Positions 6,680 to 12,581 of a stretch of DNA of 64,000 nucleotides are shown piece by piece. Position 1 is the first letter of the stretch; every line of letters begins with the position of its first letter. This DNA is from Acinetobacter sp. C26M (GTDB lineage Bacteria > Pseudomonadota > Gammaproteobacteria > Pseudomonadales > Moraxellaceae). The position numbers and the translations under genes were made by a program. The DNA lies in assembly GCF_023702675.1 (NCBI RefSeq), contig NZ_CP098478.1:2232001-2296000 (forward strand). Direction: 5' to 3'. The notes beneath the pieces are model-generated. The model was given only the letters and a program-made list of their open reading frames with translations, ran no database searches and was not told the origin of the DNA.

Positions 6680-7627
6680 TTAACTCTTGATTCGGGTGAA
6701 TTTCTGCTCCAACATTTTTTTACCCCATTGGTTCCCGTCCCATTCATGAGCCAATGTAAATCCAAAAATTTCATATAAATTTCTTGCTGCGTTAAGACCA
6801 CTAAAAGTCCATAGCTGAACAGCAGAAAAAGATTTTTCATCACAGAATCCAATTGCTTGATCTAAAAGTCTTTTTCCAACTCCTTGACCTCTGCATTCAT
6901 CACTTAAAATAAACCATCTAAGATGAGCTTCATTATTTCCTAGGTCTTCGCCATCAATCGCAACAGATCCGACTATTTTATTGTTTCGAATTGCTAACCA
7001 TATATGATTAGATGGGTTAGACATACGGACTGAAAATTCAGCCAAATCCTTTGCTACTCTTGCTTCAAAAAAGTATCCAAAATCAAAATTTTCAGAATAA
7101 TAGGTACCGTGCATTTCGGCAATTCGACCAATCATTCCTGCGCGATAGCCACTTACTATTTCAATATCACTATGAATCACATCATTTTTATTATTTCGAC
7201 AATTAATTAAAGATTGAGCATACGCTGTCAAACCTTGAGCGATCTCTTTCTGTTTATATTTATTTATCTTTTCAATAGCCTGAACAACTCTCAACTCCCC
7301 GTACTGATTAATTTTCTTAACAGTATCTCTTCCCTTTAAAGTCAGTCTTAAAGTCTTAGATCGAGCATCTGTCACGTCTTGCTCTTCAACAATTTCACCG
7401 TTCTTAATTAACTTAACTAGCATTCTGCTAATACTAGACTTTTCAAGCCCAAGAATTTCCCCCAACTGAACAGCTGTTATAAAATTTCTATTTTCAAGCT
7501 CAAGAAGTGTATGGACTGCTGATGGAGAATAATTTGTTGCAGCAAGAGTTGTATTCAGGAAACCGAGCTCCCGCACCATGATTCTTGAAGAGCAACGAAT
7601 TTCATCAATTATTTTTTGGTCTAACAC
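6680..7627 (-). CDS. MarR-type regulator fused to GNAT N-acetyltransferase
   Basis: A protein of about 315 residues. The N-terminal ~140 residues form a MarR winged helix-turn-helix (LEKSSISRMLVKLIKNGEIV, then the wing with DARSKTLRLT). The C-terminal ~150 residues are a GNAT domain with the acetyl-CoA motif CRGQGVGKRLLDQA and a terminal ARNLYEIFGF segment. Bifunctional MarR-GNAT proteins are a known group, mostly of unmapped function. I prefer a GTG start at 7627 because a GAGG motif lies 9 bases upstream and the alternative ATG at 7666 falls inside a long palindrome that looks like its own operator. No partner gene is adjacent. Confidence 0.8.
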   Translation of the reverse strand: MLDQKIIDEIRCSSRIMVRELGFLNTTLAATNYSPSAVHTLLELENRNFITAVQLGEILGLEKSSISRMLVKLIKNGEIVEEQDVTDARSKTLRLTLKGRDTVKKINQYGELRVVQAIEKINKYKQKEIAQGLTAYAQSLINCRNNKNDVIHSDIEIVSGYRAGMIGRIAEMHGTYYSENFDFGYFFEARVAKDLAEFSVRMSNPSNHIWLAIRNNKIVGSVAIDGEDLGNNEAHLRWFILSDECRGQGVGKRLLDQAIGFCDEKSFSAVQLWTFSGLNAARNLYEIFGFTLAHEWDGNQWGKKMLEQKFTRIKS

Positions 7628-7643
7628 GAGAATACGCCTCAAA

Positions 7644-7668
7644 ATATAGTTGCATAATACAACCATAT
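7644..7668. promoter_or_regulatory. Candidate MarR operator palindrome
   Basis: A 25-bp imperfect palindrome with matching arms ATAT-n-GTTG-n-AT around the centre and AT-n-CAAC-n-ATAT on the other side. It lies 17 bases upstream of the GTG start of the MarR-GNAT gene, where autorepression would act. A TTGACT hexamer on the minus strand (7682-7687) lies just upstream and could be the -35 element. Confidence 0.55.
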
Positions 7669-8299: not shown

Positions 8300-9361
8300 A
8301 TGTTAAATATAACAAAATATATAATGGCTTTAGCTACTGTATTTACAGTAATAGATAGTTATGCAGCCAGTGCTTTAGATGTATCACCAATTTGTAAAAC
8401 AGTCGGTAAAGATCTTGATAGCTTTATAAGCAGAGGTTCACACTGTCTAGTATCAGATCAACGTGAAATTGCTCTAACTGATGCACAAGGCCTAAATGTA
8501 GGTACTGCCAAAGTTACGGCTTATGTATATTCCAATAATCCTAAAAATGCATTAACTTGGACTTATAAATATAAATTGCGTACACAAATTATTGGAAAAC
8601 CAGGTGAATCTTTAAAAATACGTCCAGAATTGTATTGTTATGATTGTTCGGTAAAAACCGTATACGGTAATCCAATTAATTTAGTCAATGGCTTATCAGC
8701 AGAATCAAGCACAACATTTACTCCTTCCAGCTCTTCTCTCGCTGTATCGAATCCATTGTTTTTATCTCCAAATGTTAGTTTTCAGGTTGTAAAAGCAAAA
8801 GAATCTTTTGATAATGCGGCTAATTTTGATCCAGGTCTTTATAATCCTAGTGTACGTTGTGATATTGGTAAGGCTAAAGCAAATACAAAGGGATGTGTCT
8901 ATCCTACTGCACCAGCTATCATGACTACAATTAAGCTTACTGATCCAGACGTAGATGAATCTGCAAAGCATATCAAAGAAGCATTTTTAGCAGGAAAAGA
9001 AGGTGAGTTTATTCCTAGCGCTCCAAACTCTTTATTTAGAACATCGAATTCTAGACCTTTAAATCGCCTTAGGGATGCAGGTGACCGCAAAAAAAATCGT
9101 GAAATATCTGTAAAAAGTTGTAAAGCAAAATATGGTCCAACTGTTGGCTCGAAATGTTTCTTTACAGGTGATTCGGATGAAGTTGCAACTGATTGTGATT
9201 GTGATGAATTCCCTTTTGCCGCGACAAAACAAGGTGGCGTAAATGCTTCTGTGAAAAAAATTGATGCCTCTGATAATCGGAGGGCTGGTGCTCGTTTAGG
9301 TGCTTTTTTTAATGAGGAAAGAGTGCTAGATGATGATGAATTCTTTTTAAAAGTTGATTGA
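8300..9361 (+). CDS. Secreted protein with C-terminal NucA/NucB-type DNase domain
   Basis: A 353-residue protein with a Sec signal peptide (about residues 1-25), an N-terminal domain with several Cys (residues 30-200) that I do not recognise, and a C-terminal region matching the Bacillus NucA/NucB sporulation/competence nuclease pattern: ESAKHIKEAFLAG (220-232), CDCDEFPFA (299-307) and ASVKKIDASDNRRAGARLG (316-334), equivalent to the AKHIEDA, DRDEWPMA and ASVEYISPADNRGAG blocks of NucB. The DE(F/W)P(F/M)A motif is the family hallmark. The EGGEG block of NucB is QGGVN here, so a metal-site residue may differ. It likely cuts DNA outside the cytoplasm. The MoeA-fold gene follows after 53 bases and may be its partner. 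Confidence 0.7.
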   Translation: MLNITKYIMALATVFTVIDSYAASALDVSPICKTVGKDLDSFISRGSHCLVSDQREIALTDAQGLNVGTAKVTAYVYSNNPKNALTWTYKYKLRTQIIGKPGESLKIRPELYCYDCSVKTVYGNPINLVNGLSAESSTTFTPSSSSLAVSNPLFLSPNVSFQVVKAKESFDNAANFDPGLYNPSVRCDIGKAKANTKGCVYPTAPAIMTTIKLTDPDVDESAKHIKEAFLAGKEGEFIPSAPNSLFRTSNSRPLNRLRDAGDRKKNREISVKSCKAKYGPTVGSKCFFTGDSDEVATDCDCDEFPFAATKQGGVNASVKKIDASDNRRAGARLGAFFNEERVLDDDEFFLKVD

Positions 9362-9375
9362 TTATTAATTAAAAA

Positions 9376-9399
9376 AGGTAACTCCAATCAGAGTTACCT
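9376..9399. repeat. Inverted repeat between the DNase-like and MoeA-like genes
   Basis: A perfect 9-bp stem AGGTAACTC / GAGTTACCT with a 6-base loop. On the minus strand it is followed by a T run and would be a textbook terminator, but no minus-strand gene ends here. On the plus strand it lies in the gap between two genes and could act as an attenuator or mRNA processing/stabilising site. Confidence 0.5.
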
Positions 9400-9414: not shown

Positions 9415-10821
9415 ATGCATAAACTTCCTGTCCCTGAAGATCTTCCATATGATCTGACTACAATTTACTATCGCCTTTTTATGCAGCTTCCTCTAGGTGA
9501 GTTAAAGGATACTGTAGATTTAGAAGCAGCGCTGAATCAAGTGAATGCTCGTGATGTTCACGCCTTACAGGACTATCCAACCAATAATCTATCAGCTTAT
9601 ATAGGTTGGGCTATTAATTCAGAGTCAACTCAAAATGCAAGTAAACAGCGACCTGTATTCATCAATTCCCTATACTGCTGGGGACAACAACTCTATCGTT
9701 CATTAAACCCTTATAAACTAGATCTGAGCGGTAAAAATCTACTTAGAATTCCACAATATACAAAATTACCTGAATCTATTGATGCCATTATTCCAGAAGA
9801 CGATAAGCGTTTAGATATTTCTGATTACGATAATAAAAAAATTACAGCGCCAATATCTGCAATGCAAGGCGTTATCCAGAAAGGAAGTGTAATTAAACAA
9901 GGTAATCTGATTCTAGCTAAAAATGAGAAAATCTCACCAGAGAAATTGATTGCTCTAAGACGGGCTGGAATTAAAGAGCTAACAATTTATAGAGATCCAC
10001 GAATTCTTGTTGTGAGTATGCATACCTTTGATAGTGAGCATACGTTTTGTGAAGAAAGTTTGTATGTTAAAGACTTATTGAAATCATGGGGCTATAAGCA
10101 TATCGAGATAAAACTGCTTAAGCCGCAGCGTTATGATTCTGCATTTAATAGTCTTAAGAAGGAAAAAGATCCTGCTTTAGATGATAAATTAACAACAAAC
10201 TGGGAGGATTATAATCAATTTTTTGAAGATCATATTCCTAATTTTGATGTGATGATTCTATGTTCTCATAAAGACATTGGTGGTTCATTATTTTCAATTG
10301 GTAGACTTACCGCCTTTGATCCTGGCAGTATGACCTCAAATTTCCAAACACGCTCTATCCCAGCGAATGAACTGAGCATCATTAGAAGTATGCCTAGAAC
10401 ACTCCCGATGCGTGAAACGGTTCAATTGTATGATGATCAAGGTAACCATAAAGGCTCAAAAGTCATCACGACAGAAGATAAGACAACGATCATTAATTTA
10501 CCTGGTGATATACAAGATATTTCCCTACTCATGCATTTCATGGTGAAATATATTTTAAATAAACATGATCCCGATTTTCTCAACAAAATATTTATAAAAG
10601 GTCGTACTAAACAAAAAATTGAGACTGATCAAAATAAAAGAAAATTGTTATGGGGTAAATATCAATTGCAAGATGATGGTCAATATTCATTAGAGATCGT
10701 TGAACAACAACACACATATCAGGTAGAGCCTTTTCTCAAGGCTAATTGCATTGTGATTGTCCCATTTGCTGAGCAACCAATTCAATCAAATGACGAGATT
10801 TATTTCATGAAGATTGACTAA
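9415..10821 (+). CDS. MoeA-fold protein with altered active-site motif
   Basis: A 468-residue protein that follows the MoeA/gephyrin-E domain order: a start-domain pattern around residues 35-70 (LEAALNQVNARDVHALQDYP), LPESIDAIIPED (118-129), the domain II/III bridge VIQKGSVIKQGNLILAKNE with ISPEKLIALRRAGI (153-185), DPRILVVSMHTFDSE (194-208), NLPGDIQDIS (361-370, the LPGNPVS equivalent) and a C-terminal domain ending NDEIYFMKID. The catalytic TGG-VS-GD motif of molybdopterin molybdotransferases is replaced by CSHKDIGGSLFSIG (283-296), so ordinary molybdate insertion is doubtful. It lies 53 bases after the secreted DNase gene on the same strand, with a weak ribosome-binding site. No other moa/moe gene is nearby. 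A regulatory or immunity-like role is only an inference. Confidence 0.6.
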   Translation: MHKLPVPEDLPYDLTTIYYRLFMQLPLGELKDTVDLEAALNQVNARDVHALQDYPTNNLSAYIGWAINSESTQNASKQRPVFINSLYCWGQQLYRSLNPYKLDLSGKNLLRIPQYTKLPESIDAIIPEDDKRLDISDYDNKKITAPISAMQGVIQKGSVIKQGNLILAKNEKISPEKLIALRRAGIKELTIYRDPRILVVSMHTFDSEHTFCEESLYVKDLLKSWGYKHIEIKLLKPQRYDSAFNSLKKEKDPALDDKLTTNWEDYNQFFEDHIPNFDVMILCSHKDIGGSLFSIGRLTAFDPGSMTSNFQTRSIPANELSIIRSMPRTLPMRETVQLYDDQGNHKGSKVITTEDKTTIINLPGDIQDISLLMHFMVKYILNKHDPDFLNKIFIKGRTKQKIETDQNKRKLLWGKYQLQDDGQYSLEIVEQQHTYQVEPFLKANCIVIVPFAEQPIQSNDEIYFMKID

Positions 10822-10848: not shown

Positions 10849-10877
10849 GAAGCCCACAAATCGTGGGCTAATCTTTT
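10849..10877. terminator. Terminator-like hairpin after the MoeA-like gene
   Basis: A stem AGCCCAC / GTGGGCT with a 5-base loop, followed by a short T-rich stretch on the plus strand. It ends the DNase/MoeA-like unit. Confidence 0.6.
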
Positions 10878-10908: not shown

Positions 10909-11229
10909 TCAAGATCTCCTATACCCCAATTGGCGCTCATCGGTACGCGAGCTTGAAACCTCTGTAATATTATTGGTTAAATCTTGAAATGAAACGATAT
11001 TTCGACCATCCAGATCCTCTCGAGTAAAAACCTTGACCGATTGAGGAGTATCACGAAGCGATAAATTTTGTTTTGTTGATGTATTGGTGCTTTTTACTGC
11101 ATAGCTTTCGGAGCCTTCTGTTACAGCAGGATTTTTCTGCTGCTTTAATTCTTTGTTACACGGCAGCAAAACTTCTGAACAAAAGCCAATATGAATAACT
11201 ATCTTTATTAATGAGTAATGAAGAATCAT
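10909..11229 (-). pseudogene. Fragment of a TonB-dependent siderophore receptor (plug start only)
   Basis: The reading frame holds the start of a TonB-dependent receptor plug domain: TKQNLSLRDTPQSVKVFTRE followed by a DL-x-GRNIVSFQDLTNNI segment, the usual TonB-box/plug entry of siderophore receptors. It stops after about 105 residues, whereas receptors have 650-800. No beta-barrel sequence follows in any frame nearby. The N-terminus (MILHYSLIKIVIHIG) is not a convincing signal peptide. This is a deletion remnant, not a working receptor, and shows that this island has been rearranged. Confidence 0.75.
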
Positions 11230-11366: not shown

Positions 11367-12224
11367 TTATTTAATCAAATGTTCTTTTACAATATGATCA
11401 CTTAAAAGCTTAATTACTTCTGAACGTTCATCTAGAGAAGTTTCACTCTTTCTCACATAAATACTAATAAATACAGGCGCATGACTTTCCGACCATACCA
11501 TTGATGTTAAACCTCTAATGCCATAATCACTGGCACCTGTACGATCTGCAATTTTCCATCCTTTAGGTAACGCAGCTCTTAACATATTATCTGCAACTTT
11601 GTTCCCTATCATCCATTCTTTTAATTGTTCTTTTGAGCTTGTAGATAGCACATTGCCCACCAATAATTTTTTCATACTGGTATTCATAGCATTGGGGCTA
11701 GTTGTATCTCGGATATCACCTTCGGGATTAATGACTAGATCAGGTTCATATCTATCAGATCTTGTAACTTTATCACCAATTGAACGCATAAATGAGGTGA
11801 GACCTACAGGTCCTCCACCTGCCTCTATAGCAAAATTTGCTGCTGTATTATCACTATATGCAGTTGTAATTTCGCATGCTTGTTTGATCGTCAGTTTTTT
11901 ATTTACATAATCTTTGACAACTGGCGAATAAGTAACAAGGTCTTTTTGCTGAATCGTTTTTGAATGATCTAAGCTAAGTTTTTTAGCATCGACTTTTGCT
12001 AAAACATTCGCACAAGCAAGCGCTTTTACCGTGCTATCTAATGGAAAGCGTTTATCTCCATTGATCGAAATCAACTTATCATCCATATCCAATATAGATA
12101 CACCAATCTGCCACCCCTTATCAGATAGTGTTTTGATCTGATCTTCTAGAGTAGCAGCCATGGTAGCTGACACCGAAGAACCAAACAAAACCACAGCCAT
12201 GGCAGATTTCAATAACGATTTCAT
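11367..12224 (-). CDS. Class A beta-lactamase, CARB/PSE-like
   Basis: A 285-residue periplasmic serine beta-lactamase with a signal peptide ending near ATMAA. Motifs in order are the active-site STVK (residues 64-67), SDN (124-126), the omega-loop RYEPDLVIN with Glu at 160, and RTG (228-230) in place of the usual KTG. RTG/RSG is typical of carbenicillinases (CARB/PSE), and the surrounding DLVTYSPV, DNTAAN, GDIRDTTSP and VWSESHAP blocks also follow that group. Cys 71 and 117 could form the 77-123 disulfide. Oddly, the residue four after the omega-loop Glu, normally Asn170, is Val. The start at 12224 gives a proper signal peptide; an in-frame start at 12338 does not. It sits alone in an island with a receptor fragment, suggesting acquisition. 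Confidence 0.9.
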   Translation of the reverse strand: MKSLLKSAMAVVLFGSSVSATMAATLEDQIKTLSDKGWQIGVSILDMDDKLISINGDKRFPLDSTVKALACANVLAKVDAKKLSLDHSKTIQQKDLVTYSPVVKDYVNKKLTIKQACEITTAYSDNTAANFAIEAGGGPVGLTSFMRSIGDKVTRSDRYEPDLVINPEGDIRDTTSPNAMNTSMKKLLVGNVLSTSSKEQLKEWMIGNKVADNMLRAALPKGWKIADRTGASDYGIRGLTSMVWSESHAPVFISIYVRKSETSLDERSEVIKLLSDHIVKEHLIK

Positions 12225-12581
12225 ATTGCATCCATATATTAAAAATTTAAAAAAATAAGCGCAGCCAAGTATATATCTAAAAATAAAATTACGAATTAAA
12301 TCAAACATTTTAGCAACCAATAAAATACTTAAATGCATTCAAGAATAACGCCACAATTAAAGGGCTTTTACACATTTACCAACATGAATATTGTTGTTCA
12401 TCGTATGTGCCATACGATTAGGAAAAAAGAACAAAATACGGAGGATAGCAAGTCCACCTAGCACTTGACTGCCACCTTTATTTCAACGTGAAAATTGATC
12501 AGCAGCATCAATAATGGAGATTTTTTTGCCATTAAATATAAAAGCCCATCTTTCAATGAGCTTTAGTCATTAACTATGTTG
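12225..12581. other. Intergenic region with possible decayed coding remnant
   Basis: It holds the beta-lactamase promoter and, at 12361-12540 on the minus strand, a frame encoding about 60 residues (including GGSQVLGGLAILRILFFF) broken by a stop codon. I do not recognise the source gene. An imperfect terminator hairpin (12541-12564) belongs to the gene starting at 13052. Confidence 0.35.
12541..12564 (-). terminator. Terminator of the 12582-13052 gene
   Basis: Imperfect hairpin AAAGCCCAT / AATGAGCTTT. On the minus strand the one mismatch becomes a G-U wobble and the stem is followed by T-rich sequence. Related hairpins recur after other small minus-strand genes in this window. Confidence 0.6.

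Follow-up and report, generated by a model that had tools for sequence, protein, structure and literature searches.

A nuclease gene and a MoeA-like gene lie side by side

The window, by which we mean the whole 64,000-nucleotide stretch of Acinetobacter sp. C26M DNA that was analyzed, carries two adjacent genes on its plus strand. The first (8300 to 9361) encodes a 353-aa DNase of the NucA/NucB family, predicted to be secreted and proposed here as the toxin of the pair. The second, an intact ORF that starts 53 nt downstream (9415 to 10821), encodes a 468-aa MoeA-fold pseudoenzyme, for which we propose a role as immunity protein or as inhibitor of the nuclease. The original prediction had placed a NucB-like secreted nuclease next to the MoeA-like gene, and this was borne out: the 353-aa protein matched PF14040 (E 5.8e-11; 43.2 bits against a curated cut-off of 23.8) and retained the catalytic residues. 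Using phmmer, weak matches to solved NucB structures were also obtained (5omt, E 9.4e-4; 6ejs, E 1.2e-3).

The first ~24 residues of the nuclease (8300 to 8371, plus strand) are hydrophobic and resemble a Sec-type signal peptide, as judged by eye from the translation, and ten cysteine columns in the nuclease alignment, each occupied in 25 to 31 of 31 rows, would fit an exported protein. The NucB catalytic core (8969 to 9277, plus strand) contains His224 (8969 to 8971), Asp302-Glu303 (9203 to 9208), and Asn326 (9275 to 9277), all invariant in the 31 aligned rows (30 distinct). These residues were matched, by alignment position and not structurally, to His53, Asp93, Glu94, and Asn117 of Bacillus licheniformis NucB, whose equivalents in Bacillus subtilis NucB are described as needed for activity (PMC5758888). 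Since the catalytic residues are invariant and B. subtilis NucB requires the corresponding ones, the window nuclease is predicted to be an active DNase. No delivery domain was recognized in it beyond the signal peptide-like start, and its N-terminal region had no Pfam match; a relative from Aquabacterium (L066) carries a PKD domain.

The gap separating the two genes contains an inverted repeat that could form an RNA hairpin (9377 to 9398, plus strand). A classical intrinsic terminator at this site was rejected, as no T run follows on the plus strand and the site was absent from the terminator scan. The hairpin folded in all eight Acinetobacter pairs examined. In the six distinct aligned sequences, 93.9% of cells paired, compared to 31.8 to 48.5% when the alignment was slid, and two base pairs changed on both sides, a number of two-sided pairs also reached by 230 of 500 shuffles; the covariation score at a slide of +1 was nearly equal (0.188 versus 0.194). 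Speculatively, the hairpin could set the ratio of nuclease to MoeA-like product. A terminator-like hairpin follows the two-gene unit (10851 to 10869, plus strand) and came from the terminator scan, in which the region had 3 terminator-like sites against a shuffle mean of 1.5. Promoter-like sites were scarcer than in shuffled sequence (6 against a mean of 16.5), and we therefore claim no promoter for the pair.

Other ORFs in the neighborhood were also noted. Downstream, a short ORF (10909 to 11229) matches part of the TonB-receptor plug domain just under the cut-off and is possibly a receptor gene remnant. It is followed by a class A β-lactamase gene (11367 to 12338; 265 bits to NCBIfam bla_class_A, cut-off 200); within the 25 models listed for this gene, none for a named subfamily scored above its cut-off. 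Upstream, a single ORF (6680 to 7666) joins a MarR-type DNA-binding domain to a GNAT acetyltransferase domain.

The MoeA-like protein keeps the fold and has lost the molybdopterin pocket

In the 468-aa protein, Pfam recognized MoeA domains I and II (MoeA_N, PF03453; residues 31 to 185, 9505 to 9969, plus strand) above the cut-off, with an E value of 6.5e-17. A MoeA domain IV-like region (MoeA_C, PF03454; residues 395 to 464, 10597 to 10806, plus strand) fell just under it (E 3.1e-4; 21.4 bits versus 22.1), while MoCF_biosynth gave no match up to E 5. To this, profile-profile comparison added the rest of the protein. Using hhalign, a profile built from 29 family members (21 remained after filtering by the program) was aligned to one of 19 ordinary MoeA proteins with a probability of 100 and an E value of 6.6e-44 over 408 columns, spanning window residues 13 to 468 and including the MoeA_C region. 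Based on this 408-column alignment, we conclude that the whole MoeA architecture is present, C-terminal domain included, as had been read from the sequence at first. Seven residues (P55, G64, P99, L167, W225, G226, and D278) were invariant in 25 sequences of the family. In a tree with an arbitrary root and long branches, the family was set apart from the 19 ordinary MoeA proteins with a support of 0.994; two 459-aa MoeA-like proteins from another cluster (L038 and L039, E about 1e-5) were kept out of it. No signal peptide was seen at the N-terminus of the 468-aa protein, Pfam found no SUKH domain in it, and neither window protein matched any PADLOC anti-phage defense model.

Pocket motifs were then counted in a joint alignment of the 29 family members and the 19 ordinary MoeA proteins. 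Whole TGDE was found in none of the family and in 16/19 ordinary MoeA, whole KPGKP in 0/29 and 10/19 (its first P was present in 21/29), and whole PGNP in 0/29 and 18/19 (its last P was present in 6/29). The D of DGYA was kept in 1/29 compared to 19/19, and the last R of RxxFLR in 0/29 compared to 17/19. Within GGVSVGD, the second G (1/29) and the S (2/29) were each present in all 19 ordinary proteins, and the first and third G were each found in 11/29 family members. The D of this motif, which we take to be Asp228 of E. coli MoeA, occurred in 1/29 and 11/19, respectively. For Asp228, a requirement in the coordination of Mg is described (PMC9458074). Structural residues were retained, namely, the G of DGYA (28/29) and the P and G of LPG (26/29 and 27/29).

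At the motif positions the window protein reads SAYIGWAI, MHTF, LCSHKDIGGSL, IPANE, NLPGDIQD, and KRKLLWG. The lost TGDE position (MHTF) lies at 10018 to 10029 and the lost TTGGVSVGD position (LCSHKDIGGSL), located in both the joint and the hhalign alignments, at 10258 to 10290. At 10498 to 10509 the joint alignment places LPGD as the counterpart of the ordinary LPGN, with LPG kept and N-P lost (all on the plus strand). The missing TGGVSxGD motif and the LPGNPVS equivalent, both part of the original prediction, were thus found as described. Its statement that no other molybdenum-cofactor gene is near applies to the window and needs refining for the genome, which has an ordinary moeA ~46 kb away, outside the window (C1:2194938-2195423 for the MoeA_N part). 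Databases name the MoeA-like and MoeA-SUKH proteins MoeA, MoaA, "molybdenum cofactor biosynthesis protein," or SMI1/KNR4.

The two genes are paired across genomes

Full-length relatives of the window nuclease were found in 8 of 175 Acinetobacter genomes. Directly downstream of every one of these eight nucleases lay a MoeA-like gene, the nuclease match ending 57 to 83 nt before the MoeA-like match. The MoeA-like family itself comprised 23 genes (one truncated) in 20 of the 175 genomes, and the hypergeometric p value for the pairing, which ignores relatedness, was 6.8e-9. Among 65 Burkholderia genomes, seven held a full-length nuclease and three more held fragments, and the partner was directly downstream of all seven intact nucleases. 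Full-length matches to this partner, a MoeA-SUKH protein, amounted to 19 genes in 18 genomes, with partial matches in 2 further genomes (hypergeometric p 4.6e-5, again ignoring relatedness). Given the 8/8 and 7/7 pairing and the hypergeometric values, chance adjacency was rejected. The same gene order was seen in Trinickia (L054, L056), Paraburkholderia (L059), and Aquabacterium (L066, L071), and the co-occurrence proposed as a check in the original prediction thus recurs in Acinetobacter and several Burkholderiales genera.

In one set of Acinetobacter loci, 7 of 17 MoeA-like genes had the nuclease directly upstream, in surroundings that mostly differed. The nuclease and partner gene trees agreed (Mantel r 0.87; 19 chosen pairs, 5000 permutations, p 0.0002), which is also compatible with plain co-inheritance of neighbors. 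Among the 80 best loci, kept from 440 nuclease relatives, a MoeA-like gene was downstream in 14 and SUKH alone in 2; at 41, neither was present in the 2.5 kb after the nuclease, and the ORF script called no nuclease ORF at the remaining 23. On the basis of these 41 and 23 loci, the association with MoeA-like or SUKH partners is restricted to one lineage of the nuclease. Only one partial nuclease match (G490) was found outside the window genome in 369 genomes drawn from the class.

Some loci called for separate treatment. A Chitinimonas locus (L061) was cut by a contig end and L062 held a partial nuclease at a contig edge, while L063, with the nuclease split over two ORFs beside a shortened MoeA-like ORF, was not counted as intact. 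At L165 and L170 a longer opposite-strand ORF hid the MoeA-like gene (and, at L170, also the nuclease), and these genes were counted from the Burkholderia genome matches. A Paraburkholderia MAG (G720), which holds the full pair of L059, also carries an N-terminally shortened nuclease (209 aa) before a 482-aa MoeA-like protein without SUKH (L147, 5283 to 7386).

SUKH domains are fused to, accompany, or replace the MoeA-like part

In Burkholderia and relatives, the partner is longer (~670 to 690 aa, longest ORFs to 721) and has a SUKH-1 domain at its C-terminus. Two scanned fusion proteins (L053 and L054) matched SUKH-1 (PF09346) with E values of 1.3e-18 and 2.3e-18, and among the 84 clusters listed, all 44 from P0131 to P0174 carried both PF03453 and PF09346. 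The fusion was found in Burkholderia, Trinickia, Paraburkholderia, and Chitinimonas, the last represented by a protein (L146) with a short nuclease-like stretch upstream. At both Aquabacterium loci with a pair (L066 and L071), SUKH is encoded by a gene of its own downstream of the MoeA-like one, and in Aquabacterium A7-Y (L100) and Ideonella (L127) SUKH comes after the nuclease with no MoeA-like gene. At the Acinetobacter MoeA-like loci examined, the SUKH profile found nothing except a broken stretch in A. amyesii, which belongs to the same subfamily and lies ~0.9 kb away from the MoeA-like gene. In L053, the SUKH portion also matched a candidate PADLOC model, PDC-M40A (E 2.6e-47).

ComI toxins are presumably of the NucA/NucB type of PF14040. 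For these toxins, the SUKH immunity superfamily is listed together with ComJ (PMC3482391). Only the MoeA part is present in Acinetobacter, and it should therefore suffice there if the protein is an inhibitor; by the same logic, SUKH should suffice at the two betaproteobacterial loci where only SUKH is present.

Another NucB domain was observed in Acinetobacter genome G215, at the end of a very large protein (3074-aa open frame) encoded on the minus strand (L176, 9023 to 15001). The nuclease match covers only query residues 296 to 348, and the protein is not among the eight full-length Acinetobacter nucleases. The gene after it had a sub-threshold SUKH match (E 0.0018), and we regard the giant protein as a candidate for another NucB-tipped toxin in the genus.

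Dependence between the two genes is one-sided

None of 18 intact close nucleases (8 from Acinetobacter, 7 from Burkholderia, and L054, L056, and L059) lacked a partner; a broken nuclease fragment without a MoeA-like partner was present in G724. MoeA-like genes were, in contrast, often alone. The original prediction had taken homologues occurring mostly without the nuclease gene as evidence against a link between the two proteins. Such a majority was indeed found in Acinetobacter, where 15 of 23 MoeA-like genes had no nuclease; in Burkholderia, tblastn of 10-kb stretches gave no nuclease trace at 9 of 19 MoeA-SUKH genes and fragments only at 3 more (one in G739, two in G771). However, immunity genes outlive their toxins, and frequent orphans would be expected of them. 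That the nuclease needs the MoeA-like gene, whereas the latter persists without it, is the pattern of a toxin with its immunity gene.

Comparison of equivalent loci showed the same asymmetry. One locus, flanked by conserved genes, holds the nuclease and the MoeA-like gene in G095, the MoeA-like gene alone in G155, and two MoeA-like genes in G157; at a second locus, G273 has both genes and G203 only the MoeA-like gene. Tandem MoeA-like copies were present in two Acinetobacter genomes (G157 and G305), and tblastn detected no nuclease remnants at nine solo Acinetobacter loci and four more. An identical orphan protein of 463 aa, with 36% identity to the window protein, is encoded on Acinetobacter plasmids of 9 and 14 kb in two strains (L178, NZ_CP044461.1, 6034 to 7425; L177, NZ_CP048674.1, 4258 to 5649). 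Neither a nuclease nor a SUKH match was found on these two plasmids, one of which also carries a gene annotated as Rhs. Orphans compared with each other had dN/dS values of 0.13 to 0.23 (six comparisons, with dS saturated at 2.3 for L032 versus L173), similar to those of paired MoeA-like genes (0.14 to 0.21). The orphans are thus under purifying selection, which would also fit an unrelated cellular function.

A proposed role as a nuclease inhibitor

Taken from the gene and profile comparisons above, the likely explanation is that the MoeA-fold pseudoenzyme inhibits its cognate NucB-type nuclease and that the pair is a nuclease/immunity cassette. The first gene would make a NucB-type DNase exported via Sec, and the second a cytosolic protein that retains the complete MoeA architecture but has no molybdopterin pocket. 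This protein would bind and inhibit the DNase, before export or on its return from a sister cell, as Nin does with NucA of B. subtilis or barstar with barnase. In Burkholderia and relatives, the C-terminal SUKH-1 domain joined to the MoeA-like part would give two inhibitory modules, whereas in Acinetobacter the MoeA-like part alone would be enough, if the inhibitor reading is right. Orphan genes may be retained as protection against the nucleases of neighbors, and the pair may thus serve in competition. Of the options raised in the original prediction (repurposed scaffold, immunity factor, assembly factor, or action on a different ligand), immunity gained from the pairing, the SUKH fusion, and the one-way dependence, and assembly lost ground to the orphans. 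With somewhat less assurance, we favor the broader view that the MoeA fold constitutes a new immunity superfamily, i.e., a pocketless scaffold that alone inhibits NucB-type DNases, is joined to SUKH in Burkholderia, and has spread as orphans on chromosomes and small plasmids. At ~470 aa, it would be large for an immunity protein.

The same inhibitor mechanism could serve another purpose. The pair may act in DNA scavenging or uptake, with a secreted DNase and a cytosolic safety inhibitor as in NucA/Nin, rather than in competition. We consider this rather unlikely, although its odds overlap with those of the cassette reading, from which it differs only in purpose. It would fit the lack of a recognized delivery module in the nuclease and the inhibition of both NucA and NucB by Nin described for B. 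subtilis (PMC5758888), but it does not readily account for inhibitor genes that are orphans, in tandem, or on plasmids unless foreign nucleases are involved.

The SUKH loci allow a different division of labor. SUKH alone could be the inhibitor in the fusion proteins, with another role for the MoeA-like part, and in the strict form of this explanation SUKH is the sole immunity factor while the MoeA-like part acts as a dimer scaffold or senses nucleotides or the products of DNA breakdown, with a regulatory or housekeeping role in Acinetobacter. The two loci with a nuclease followed by SUKH alone and the broken SUKH stretch near the A. amyesii gene speak for it, as does the existence of dimeric, protein-binding MoeA-fold scaffolds such as Glp, which binds FtsZ (PMC10522489). 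The Acinetobacter loci, however, show no SUKH other than that broken stretch, and yet a MoeA-like gene is found beside all eight full-length nucleases, which makes SUKH-only immunity unlikely.

A secretion or folding partner (a chaperone or pilot) in place of an inhibitor would suit the fixed gene order and the agreeing trees, as would any dedicated partner. The frequent orphans speak against such a dedicated assembly or folding role, since many are intact and under purifying selection and some lie on plasmids with no nuclease nearby, and so do the tandem copies. SUKH immunity domains are, moreover, fused to the MoeA-like part or replace it, and we judge such a partner role improbable. Finally, a true molybdenum insertase was rejected: whole-length profile homology and the database name MoeA would suit a divergent but working molybdenum- or tungsten-insertase that lies beside the nuclease by chance, but the family-wide loss of the pocket motifs, the ordinary moeA in the same genome, the nuclease pairing repeated in Acinetobacter and Burkholderiales, and the gene on 9- and 14-kb plasmids make this barely credible.

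If the inhibitor reading is right, a metabolic name would conceal a toxin-immunity family in the genomes of Acinetobacter and Burkholderia, because databases label its members as MoeA, MoaA, molybdenum cofactor biosynthesis proteins, or SMI1/KNR4, and a large enzyme-derived fold would be added to the immunity repertoire. With SUKH fusions, SUKH-only loci, and MoeA-only loci, nature offers a graded set in which to tell which part neutralizes the nuclease.

Comparison with known systems

A nuclease with an immunity gene is a known kind of system, and as far as we searched, a MoeA-fold partner in that role is apparently undescribed. We count this role as new because, in the open-access library searched, none of the listed titles and abstract beginnings linked MoeA to NucA/NucB, SUKH, or an immunity protein. 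Barnase and barstar are a secreted nuclease and its cytosolic inhibitor. They consist of an RNase and a small, unrelated inhibitor, unlike the window pair, and are an analogy of mechanism only. Nin is, we assume, the same protein as ComJ. NucA/Nin of B. subtilis resembles the window pair in having a NucB-type DNase and an adjacent inhibitor gene (PMC5758888), but ComJ is described as an 18-kDa product (PMC3482391), whereas the window partner has ~470 aa and the MoeA architecture. The polymorphic toxin survey of Zhang et al. (2012) likewise lists Tox-ComI with Imm-ComJ or Imm-SUKH, i.e., a ComI-type DNase gene that precedes the gene for its immunity protein, SUKH being one of the partners. It differs in having no MoeA-fold immunity protein, as the strings "MoeA" and "molybd" occur 0 times in the first 300,000 of the 357,715 characters of its main text (PMC3482391).

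The family profile aligns end to end with MoeA, the fold shared with the gephyrin E-domain, but the window family lacks the pocket, is paired with a DNase, and forms a separate group in the tree. Corynebacterium Glp is described as a paralogue of MoeA that has been repurposed for protein binding (PMC10522489). Its partners are FtsZ and GlpR, in the divisome of Actinobacteria, whereas the window family is tied to a nuclease and to SUKH in Pseudomonadota, and the window protein scored 63.3 bits against the NCBI Glp model, far below its cut-off of 475 bits. If our reading is right, the window family would stand beside Glp and gephyrin as another reuse of MoeA as a protein-binding module.
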